From contig NZ_ABOX02000006.1 in the NCBI RefSeq assembly GCF_000172555.1, positions 62,001 through 126,000 of the forward strand: a stretch of DNA of 64,000 bases, given 5' to 3'. The notes under the pieces were generated by a model. It saw only the letters and a program-made list of their open reading frames with translations. It was not told where the DNA came from and did not search any database. How positions within the stretch are numbered: the stretch's first letter is position 1; each line of letters begins with the position of its first letter. Shown in pieces: positions 61 to 51,290 of the stretch. The position numbers and the translations under genes are program-made. The DNA comes from Pedosphaera parvula Ellin514 (GTDB taxonomy: Bacteria; Verrucomicrobiota; Verrucomicrobiia; Limisphaerales; Pedosphaeraceae).

Positions 61-83
61 CCGGAGCGCCGGTTTCCAAACCG
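61..83. repeat. Short palindromic dispersed repeat, copy 1
   Basis: A 23-nt unit containing GGTTTCCAAACC recurs with one mismatch at 1187-1209. The core is self-complementary and could form a small hairpin. The rest of 1-240 shows no convincing gene. Confidence 0.6.
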
Positions 84-250
84 ACTTACGATGCAGTAAC
101 AACCACACCGCCCAATGTCTCACCATCGTTTCCGTCCAAGCGACAGCCCATCTTCATCTCCTTGGATAATTAATAAGAAAACTCAGATGGCAGTATGCTG
201 CCGTCTCCTACTTTGCCACAGAAGATTCCCGGAACCATCAAGTGCCCTTT

Positions 251-300
251 CCCAGCCCCAACGGGGCGCTCAATACCAGCCTGGGGTGGAACCCCAGGAA
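251..300. repeat. REP-like double hairpin beside a transposase remnant
   Basis: Two adjacent palindromes (CCCCAACGGGG and CCTGGGGTGGAACCCCAGG) match the repeats flanking the REP-associated transposase at 50.6-51.3 kb, and lie in the same relation to a transposase 3' end. They mark the border of a decayed copy of that element. Confidence 0.75.
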
Positions 301-1138: not shown

Positions 1139-1186
1139 ATCTCCGAAAACGCCATGCGGAAGGCAGCGATGAAGCGTCGTGATTAC

Positions 1187-1209
1187 CCGGAGCGCTGGTT
1201 TCCAAACCG
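1187..1209. repeat. Short palindromic dispersed repeat, copy 2
   Basis: Second copy of the 61-83 unit. It is followed by GCTCCGG (1217-1223), which can pair with CCGGAGC at its start, giving a larger hairpin just before the IS110 leader structure. Confidence 0.55.
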
Positions 1210-1221
1210 TATAGGTGCTCC

Positions 1222-1396
1222 GGAGTTATTCACGGGCGAAGGCCGGGCCTTCTGTGCTGCCCGGACTTTGAGCCCGTGAATAACTCCGCCCGCGGGCCCA
1301 GAGATTTGCTACCCTCTAGTCCGGCCGCCGTACGAATGATCCAAACCGTTTGCGAAACGAACTTAAGCCGACTTTTCGACGGCGACCGGACTAGAG
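1222..1396 (+). ncRNA. Candidate IS110 bridge RNA / structured leader
   Basis: This non-coding stretch just upstream of an IS110 transposase contains two long stems. The first is a perfect 16-bp stem (1222-1237 with 1272-1287) enclosing a second 6-bp stem (CCGGGC 1243-1248 with GCCCGG 1259-1264). The second is an 18-bp stem with one mismatch (1314-1331 with 1379-1396) closing a 47-nt loop. IS110-group elements are known to encode a bridge RNA of roughly this length upstream of the transposase, with loops that pair with target and donor DNA. Size, position and folding fit; loop-to-DNA complementarity has not been established, and the stems could instead be a palindromic target. Confidence 0.5.
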
Positions 1397-1485
1397 AGCA
1401 GCAGCCATGCATCCTCAGATGCCGGCGTCACCACGCCTCGCACTATACGACCTGCAGCCTGCCGCTTCATTAACAAAGTAAAACG

Positions 1486-2778
1486 ATGAAAAACCAATCC
1501 TCTGACGCCACCCTCACCGGGTTTGCCGCCCTGATCGGACTGGACTGGGGCCACGGCGCTCATGCCATCGCCCTGGAGATCAGCGGCGCAAACACCGAAA
1601 CCTCCACGCTGGAGCATTCCGCTGAAAATCTCCATCAGTGGCTTGATCAACTGGAAAAGCGCTGCGGCGGCAGGCCGGTTGCCGTCGCGATCGAGGCCAG
1701 CAAAGGCGCCGCCGTTTACGCCTTGCTGGAACGGCCCTGGATCACGGTCTACCCGATCCACCCGGCCACCAGCACGCGCACCAGAGCCGCCTTCCGGCCC
1801 TCCGGCGCCAAGGACGACACGCCGGATGCCTTGGTGCTTTTGAGTCTCCTGCAACATCACCGCGACCGCCTGCGTCCGCTGCAACTGGATGATGAAGCCA
1901 CCCGCACGCTGGCCCGCCTGGTTGAGGCCCGCCGCAAGGCGGTGGACCGGCGCACGCTCCTGTCCAACCAGCTCCAAAGCACACTGCGCGATTATTTTCC
2001 CCAAGCCCTCGAGCTGGTTGGCGACAACCTGGCTGCGCCGCTGGCTTTGGACTTTCTGGAAAGGTGGCCCCGTCTGACGGACGTGCAGGCCGCCAGGAAC
2101 GCCACCCTCAAAAGCTTCTATCAGCGCCACAATGTGCGCCGGCCCGAACTGATTGAAAGCCGGGTGCAACGCATCCGTTCGGCCCGTCTGCTCACGCGCG
2201 ACGCCGCCGTGACCGAAGTGGCCGTGCGCACGGTGCGGCTGCTCGTGGCCGAGTTGCGCGTGCTCCAGGAACACATTGCCGCCTTTGAAACGGCCATTGC
2301 CCAGGCCTTTGCCGCGCATCCGGAGAAAAACCTTTTTCGGGAACTGCCCGGGGCCGGCGCGGTGCTGGCCCCGCGGCTGTTGGTCGCCTTTGGCACGCTG
2401 CGCGACCGGTTTGCCGATGCGGGCGCCATGCAGCGTTACTTTGGCGTCGCGCCGGTGACCGAAAAAAGCGGCGGACGGGTCTGGGTGCATTGGCGCTGGA
2501 ACGCGCCGGTCTTTGTGCGCCAAACCCTGGTCGAATGGGCCGGACAAACGGTGGTCTATTGCCCGTGGGCCAAGGCCTATTACGAGCAACAGCGCGGCAA
2601 ACGGGTCGGCCACTGGGCGATCCTGCGCGCCTTGGCGTTCAAGTGGCTGCGCATCCTGTGGCGCTGCTGGCAGAAATCCGAAGCCTACGAGGAAGAAAAA
2701 TATCTGCGTCAACTCGAACAACGCCGCTCACCCATTGCCGCCCTGGCCCGCCAGTTCGCCAAACAAATGGCCTCTTGA
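1486..2778 (+). CDS. IS110-family transposase (DEDD RuvC-like plus Tnp_20)
   Basis: A 430-residue recombinase, full length for the family. The N-terminal RuvC-like domain has the DEDD set: D20 in GLDWG, E70 in AIEASKG, and D111/D114 in KDDTPDA. The C-terminal Transposase_20 domain begins near LPGAGAVLAPRLL and carries the TEKSGG motif with S328, the likely catalytic serine. It would cut and rejoin DNA guided by a bridge RNA, which could be the structured leader just upstream. No terminal inverted repeats are evident, as usual for IS110. TCCTCAGATG occurs on both sides (1412-1421, 2803-2812). The frame is intact, so the element may be active. Confidence 0.93.
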   Translation: MKNQSSDATLTGFAALIGLDWGHGAHAIALEISGANTETSTLEHSAENLHQWLDQLEKRCGGRPVAVAIEASKGAAVYALLERPWITVYPIHPATSTRTRAAFRPSGAKDDTPDALVLLSLLQHHRDRLRPLQLDDEATRTLARLVEARRKAVDRRTLLSNQLQSTLRDYFPQALELVGDNLAAPLALDFLERWPRLTDVQAARNATLKSFYQRHNVRRPELIESRVQRIRSARLLTRDAAVTEVAVRTVRLLVAELRVLQEHIAAFETAIAQAFAAHPEKNLFRELPGAGAVLAPRLLVAFGTLRDRFADAGAMQRYFGVAPVTEKSGGRVWVHWRWNAPVFVRQTLVEWAGQTVVYCPWAKAYYEQQRGKRVGHWAILRALAFKWLRILWRCWQKSEAYEEEKYLRQLEQRRSPIAALARQFAKQMAS

Positions 2779-2932
2779 ATTAAAAATTATGTTGCGCGGT
2801 TGTCCTCAGATGTTGGCTTAAAATGAAAAACCAACAAGCCCCGCCAAGATTTTACCACCACCTCCATCCAACCCACACCCCTCTTTCATTCGCGTTAATT
2901 AGTGCAAATTAGCGGTTAAAAAAAGCCAAAAC

Positions 2933-30711: not shown

Positions 30712-31050
30712 ATGAAAACAGAGAACGAGAAAAGCATAGCGTGGCTGGGCCTGGATGCCCATGCCCATTTTTGTGTTTTGGCCTGGATGGATGACGCAGG
30801 TGAGCGCCGCGCTCACTGGCGCTTTCCCACCACCGAAAGCGAGTTGTGCCAACACTTGAAGGCCATTCCTGCCACCACCCGACAGCTGGCCCTGGAGGAA
30901 TGCGGGCTTGGCCGCTGGCTGGCCCAGGTGGCCCGGCCGCACGTCGCCGAGGTCCTCGTGTGTGATCCGCGCCAAAACCACCTCATCAGCCGCCACCACC
31001 ACAAGTGCGATGAGGAGGACAGCTACACGCTGGCCCGCGAGGTAACGCGA
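30712..31050 (+). pseudogene. IS110-family transposase, N-terminal fragment
   Basis: The first roughly 113 codons encode a DEDD domain: GLDAHAHF with the first Asp, ALEECGLGRWL with the Glu, and CDEEDSYTLA with the last acidic pair. After that the frame runs into a dispersed repeat (GTAACGCGACTCAAAT, CGCGTACGCG) and the Transposase_20 domain is absent. It differs clearly from the intact IS110 protein at 1486, so it is a separate element cut down by the repeat. Confidence 0.82.
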
Positions 31051-50599: not shown

Positions 50600-51290
50600 T
50601 TTCCCAGCCCCAACGGGGCGCTCCATACCAGCCTGGGGTGAAACCCCAGGAAAGGGCCCACCCCAAACAGCTAAGCCCTGAAAGGGCGCCCGAAACGTCC
50701 CCTCTGGACTGGCAAAATTCAAACCATTGCCTTAAATCATGACCATGCCGCAATCCCTGAGCCTGGTCATCATTCACATCATTTTTAGCACAAAGGAACG
50801 CTACGCTTTCCTTGATATTGATACCCGCCCCACACTCCATGCCTATCTCTCCACCGTCGCGCGCAATGTTGATTGCGAGTGCCATCGGGTGGGGGGGCGT
50901 GGCCGATCATGTGCATCTGGCCATTCGCCTGTCACGGAATATTACCATTGCAGAACTGGTGAAAAAATTGAAAACCTCCTCATCGCAGTGGTTGAAAACA
51001 CAGTCTCCAAGCCTGGCGACATTCGCATGGCAAACCGGTTATGGTTGTTTCTCGGTCGGTCCGACCGATCTGGATGCTTTATGTGCCTATATTGATCAAC
51101 AGGAAAAGCATCATGCCACGCGCTCCTTTCAGGAGGAATTCAGAATGTTTTTGAAAAAATATGGCGTCGAGTATGACGAGGCCTATGTATGGGATTAGAG
51201 CGCCCCTTTAGGGCTTTGATGTTTTGTTGATGATTTCCTGGGGTTTCACCCCAGGCTGGTATGGAACGCCCCGTTGGGGCTGAAAAGCGG
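50600..51290. mobile_element. REP-flanked transposase element
   Basis: Inverted copies of a double hairpin flank the transposase: CCCCAACGGGG plus CCTGGGGTGAAACCCCAGG at about 50610-50653 and their complements at about 51236-51285. Inner CCTGAAAGGG / CCTTTAGGG arms lie at about 50677 and 51207. This is the usual layout of REP-associated (RAYT) elements. Confidence 0.75.
50739..51198 (+). pseudogene. REP-associated Y1 transposase with one frameshift
   Basis: Two overlapping frames make one roughly 150-residue protein. The first runs from ATG 50739 (MTMPQSLSLVIIHIIFSTKERY) to CHRVGG; the second continues VADHVHLAIRLSRNITIAELVKKLK to the end at 51198. The break is in a G7 run at about 50891-50897; one G less would restore the frame. 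HUH motif DHVHL and the likely catalytic Tyr in AYIDQQEKHH are intact. Such enzymes move or multiply REP sequences. It might be dead, a sequencing error, or expressed by slippage at the G-run. Confidence 0.8.

Follow-up and report, generated by a model that had tools for sequence, protein, structure and literature searches.

The bridge-RNA mechanism was published in 2024. In the IS1111 group, the RNA lies in the right end (RE), downstream of the gene. IS110-group elements have a long left end (LE) and a short RE (PMC11208160), and IS621 of Escherichia coli (PDB 8wt6; PMC11208160, PMC11208158) encodes in its LE an RNA with a 5' stem-loop, a target-binding loop (TBL) and a donor-binding loop (DBL). 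Insertion into REPs is a known habit of the IS110 family (PMC1525189, PMC11208160); in one element found in REPs, ISPpu9, the transposase is regulated by two small RNAs encoded within it and by structure in the 5'UTR (PMC8450116). Here we describe an element with the same three-part RNA plan in the window, the whole 64,000-nt stretch of DNA analysed. We are highly confident that it is an IS110-group insertion sequence, complete and probably mobile in the recent past, with a predicted bridge RNA of ~240 nt that would guide its insertion into a REP-like palindrome of the host. A first-pass annotation of the same DNA had proposed a candidate bridge RNA of 175 nt (1222–1396) ahead of an intact IS110 transposase.

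Element boundaries and the repeated target

Element boundaries were fixed at ~1208–2815 by comparison with a second copy in the same genome (contig C56), which is 100% identical over window 1186–2821 and has unrelated flanks (Table 1). The first 24 bases (1186–1209) and last 6–7 bases of the identical block belong to a dispersed target repeat and not to the element, leaving a CG core dinucleotide on the left and TG on the right. Two identical copies at different sites point to recent transposition. The non-coding LE (276 nt) is longer than the RE and contains the predicted RNA; membership of the IS1111 group was rejected because the RE measures only 35 nt and the RNA is upstream of the gene.

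The insertion site of both copies is a REP-like palindrome dispersed in the genome, GGAGCGC(C/T)GGTTTCCAAACCGGCTTA, that is uninterrupted elsewhere, with a further copy at window 61–88. Allowing at most one mismatch, GGTTTCCAAACCGGCTTA occurs 17 times in the genome compared with 0 for its reversed control, and it is found in some relatives too; the centre of the repeat, GCCGGTTT-CC-AAACCGGC, is a palindrome. Facing copies are an arrangement typical of REP-like repeats, and two copies on one contig (G000 C29:58139 and C29:58304) are inverted, facing and ~165 bp apart (REPIN-like). Because the repeat abuts the left end of the element, we asked whether the left-end hairpin could be part of the repeat rather than of the element. 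This has virtually no chance of being correct and was rejected: intact repeats are without hairpins, CCAAACCG running directly into GCTTA, and the full-length leader is matched in the two IS copies only. End mapping from the two copies and the intact repeats thus places the hairpins inside the element; the first-pass annotation had named the opposite outcome as grounds for abandoning its proposal.

Table 1. Window coordinates of the element, its target and the predicted RNA features
Feature	Position	Strand	Basis or remark
Left half of REP-like target repeat, ending in core CG (1208–1209)	1187–1209	+	Uninterrupted repeat at several other genome sites and window 61–88
Left target (LT), TCCAAAC	1201–1207	+	Within left half of REP-like repeat
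IS110-group element between cores	1210–2813	+	C56 copy 100% identical, flanks different
LE; transposase gene (tnp); RE	1210–1485; 1486–2778; 2779–2813	+	Parts of IS110-group element
TATAGG, right-donor sequence and -10-like box, left end	1210–1215	+	TATAG or TATCG kept in relatives
5' stem-loop of predicted bridge RNA	1222–1287	+	Fold z -7.6; compensatory changes in relatives
TBL and stem; bulged A at 1332, then CGAA/UUCG	1307–1403	+	Fold, covariation
Left target guide (LTG), UCCAAACCG	1340–1348	+	Identical to 1201–1209, 9/9
Right target guide (RTG), CUUAAGCCG	1362–1370	+	Reverse complement of CGGCTTAAG
TBL handshake guide, AC	1371–1372	+	Complementary to donor positions 6–7 (GT); position definition PMC11208158
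DBL; GCAG/CUGC and UGCA/UGCA stem	1401–1462	+	Stem pairing maintained despite substitutions in close relatives
Left donor guide (LDG), CAGAUGCCG	1416–1424	+	RE positions 1–6 matched 6/6, then two mismatches
DBL inner hairpin, GGCG-UCACCA-CGCC	1424–1437	+	Sequence
Right donor guide (RDG), CUAUACG	1443–1449	+	Reverse complement of CGTATAG at left junction
IS110-group DEDD transposase/recombinase, 430 aa	1486–2778	+	PF01548 and PF02371; NF033542 above cut-off
TTGCGC, -35-like box; 18-bp spacer to TATAGG in circular form	2792–2797	+	Sequence
Left donor CAGATGT and core TG (2814–2815), right end	2807–2815	+	Copy comparison
Right target half, GCTTAA	2816–2821	+	Common to both copies, flanks diverge beyond; matches intact repeats

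Several other features were observed in the window and elsewhere in the genome. Two Y1_Tnp (PF01797) genes that may encode RAYT transposases are located at window 50887–51102 and G000:C18:96276–96617, and ~1.8 kb separates the latter from one occurrence of the REP-like repeat. The element adjoins a prophage-like region (window 3008–28104; S24 repressor-like gene, portal, capsid, tail tube and tail proteins), and a fragment at window 30745–31047 weakly resembles the IS110 DEDD domain, scoring under the PF01548 cut-off.

The transposase reading frame is intact and combines a DEDD RuvC-like domain (PF01548) with PF02371 and its conserved serine, the combination by which the IS110 group is recognised, and the NCBIfam model it matches is 'IS110 family RNA-guided transposase' (NF033542). 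Residues D20, E70, D111, D114 and S328, whose positions had been given correctly in the annotation, are invariant across 21 homologues. A homologue profile matched the solved recombinases of ISCro4 (E 3e-25) and IS621 (E 4e-25); the profile was needed for this match, as a single-sequence phmmer search against PDB returned nothing. Other genomes in the order and phylum, and Gammaproteobacteria, contain related elements that share 31%–62% protein identity; a plasmid collection, when searched, matched the transposase only in part.

Leader fold and its conservation

Two strong hairpins are predicted in the leader. The first is the perfect 16-bp stem previously described (1222–1237/1272–1287; 17 bp counting 1221 and 1288), together with a 6-bp inner stem and an additional stack of 4 bp. 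The second had been described as an 18-bp stem with one mismatch closing a 47-nt loop; the loop was recovered as such, and the stem comprises 17 positions (1314–1330/1380–1396) within 25-nt arms (1307–1331/1379–1403) that are 88% complementary. Folding of 1222–1403 gave -94.8 kcal/mol (z = -8.5 versus dinucleotide shuffles; none of 200 reached this stability), and each of the two hairpins folded alone gave a z of approximately -7.2 to -7.6. The DBL folded alone was no more stable than its shuffles. In each loop stem, a 4-bp stack follows an unpaired A (ACGAA/UUCG in the TBL and AUGCA/UGCA in the DBL). The range first annotated covers the 5' stem-loop and the TBL and stops before the DBL; judged from the sequence, the RNA continues through the DBL to ~1462 and is ~240 nt long rather than 175. 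An Rfam scan of the sequence matched no bridge-RNA family, and returned a sub-threshold match to Acido-Lenti-1 RNA at window 254–298 on the reverse strand (32.2 bits versus a cut-off of 37) and a chance-like Thr_leader match.

Leaders of the nearer relatives share the left-end TATAG, the 5' stem-loop, the ACGAA loop and a CTCAG...CTATA donor loop. Across 11 leaders, 23 of the 31 helix pairs in the 5' stem and TBL carry double changes, and the covariation score was 0.469 compared with 0.170 when shuffled (reached by 0 of 500 shuffles) and ≤0.171 when slid, although the structure was derived from the same alignment (RNAalifold), which favours it over the slid versions. Because the stems covary across these leaders, they are not a product of chance. 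The TBL stem was 85% paired versus 48% with arms swapped among relatives, and the outer six positions of the DBL showed a weaker difference (44% versus 30%). The 4-bp stacks of the DBL also stay complementary in close relatives (TGCA/TGCA, CGCA/TGCG, CGAA/TTCG and CGGA/TCCG), as found by a regular expression that favours such forms.

Guides, target and donor

The loop complementarity that the annotation had put forward as a check is present. The TBL, the first loop, is complementary to the target, with the bottom-strand guide followed by the top-strand guide, and the DBL, the second loop, is complementary to the joined element ends. Taken together, the LTG and RTG would spell TCCAAAC-CG-GCTTAAG. 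This 16-base target, TCCAAACCGGCTTAAG, has one exact, intact occurrence (G000:C46:53513–53528), where the RTG fits exactly; at the right flank in the window the RTG fits at 7/9. Two further sites were found with one mismatch, both in the same REP-like repeat, and the 21 sites found at two mismatches (versus 13 for the reversed control) carry little weight.

Guides also followed targets among relatives. In a permutation test with fixed positions and the core excluded, the LTG matched its own left flank at 5.33 of 7 positions (3.22 when swapped among elements) and the RTG its own flank at 4.62 of 6 (3.03 when swapped), with p ~5e-5 in each case and neither observed sum reached in 20,000 permutations; the elements were chosen and their boundaries curated by hand, a near-identical gammaproteobacterial group was thinned, and the statistics ignore shared ancestry. 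When guides were allowed to take their best match at any loop position, own and swapped pairs were only moderately separated. These results bear on the possibility that the hairpins form a regulatory leader and no guide RNA, acting as a small RNA or through 5'UTR control of the transposase. ISPpu9 provides a precedent (PMC8450116), and a strong hairpin does precede the gene here, yet we consider this very unlikely, as regulation alone does not predict loops that match target and ends or guides that change with the target in relatives. The leader very probably makes a bridge RNA guiding the element into the repeated host palindrome, and the original proposal is supported by hairpins inside the element, complementary guides and covarying stems.

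Pairing with the donor was less regular. The LDG resembles the right end CAGATGTTG (2807–2815), mismatching it at position 7 and the first core base, and the RDG pairs with the left junction at 7/7 positions including one G-U; in one relative (L063), left end and RDG change together (TATCG/CGATA). Cores are TG in the closest relatives (on both sides in L018) and CT in a sister group. The DBL handshake guide AC (window 1450–1451) fits the element's own donor and not the target AC, and in IS621 such pairing with the own donor lowers recombination (PMC11208158). Target position 7 is known for 11 elements, and the first DBL handshake base fits the target in 8 of them, all but L018, L069 and the window element. 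The CG/TG disagreement of the cores, the LDG mismatches and the complementarity of the handshake guide to its own donor could together mean that a formerly working bridge RNA is now impaired. We regard this as unlikely given the signs of recent transposition in the two identical copies, and L017 and L018 have the same A at the DBL handshake position. An equally doubtful suggestion is that the window element, L017 and L018 (with L063 nearby) form an IS110 subclade with a YG core, in which pairing of the DBL handshake guide is with the element's own donor and not the target; if so, its strand-exchange rule would differ somewhat from that of IS621.

For the working bridge RNA that we favour, a route to expression is suggested by the ends. 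Joined on paper, RE and LE form a promoter-like TTGCGC-N18-TATAGG, and TTG-type -35 boxes lie 17–18 bases before TATAG in eight of nine listed elements (L019 has CTCGAC). We infer transcription, RNA-protein binding and recombination as follows. Excision would join the right and left ends and create this promoter, which would drive the bridge RNA from a start near 1222; the TBL would pair with the target and the DBL with the joined ends around the core, and the DEDD/serine recombinase, guided by the RNA, would insert the circle into the host palindrome.

Comparison with known systems

The first-pass annotation had held that, if its proposal were correct, this would be a new programmable recombinase-RNA pair; it is new as a member of the known IS110 family, and systems of this kind have been described before. 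It offers a bridge-RNA recombinase decoded in full by prediction (target, donor, guides and core). Its lineage is far from that of IS621 and its core is TG/CG, and, if active, it would add to the cores available for RNA-guided insertion. It is also a test case for the generality of the handshake-guide rule.

Likeness to IS621 extends beyond the layout of the RNA. In both, LTG/RTG and LDG/RDG are complementary to bottom and top strands in the same order and strand sense, an unpaired A in the loop stem resembles the flipped-out A of IS621, a promoter spans the joined ends (predicted here), insertion is into REP or REP-like sequence, and the catalytic set is D, E, D, D and S. By contrast, the IS621 core is CT, its RNA is 177 nt and has a shorter 5' stem, and its chain in the PDB entry is 328 compared with 430 aa for the window protein, which is recognisable against IS621 only by profile. 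The ISCro4 transposase (PDB 9t56), compared by protein alone, is the best profile match among solved structures, albeit distant in sequence. ISPpu9, ISPpu10 and ISPa11 (PMC1525189), likened by description only, show similarly REP-specific insertion in other hosts and other repeats.
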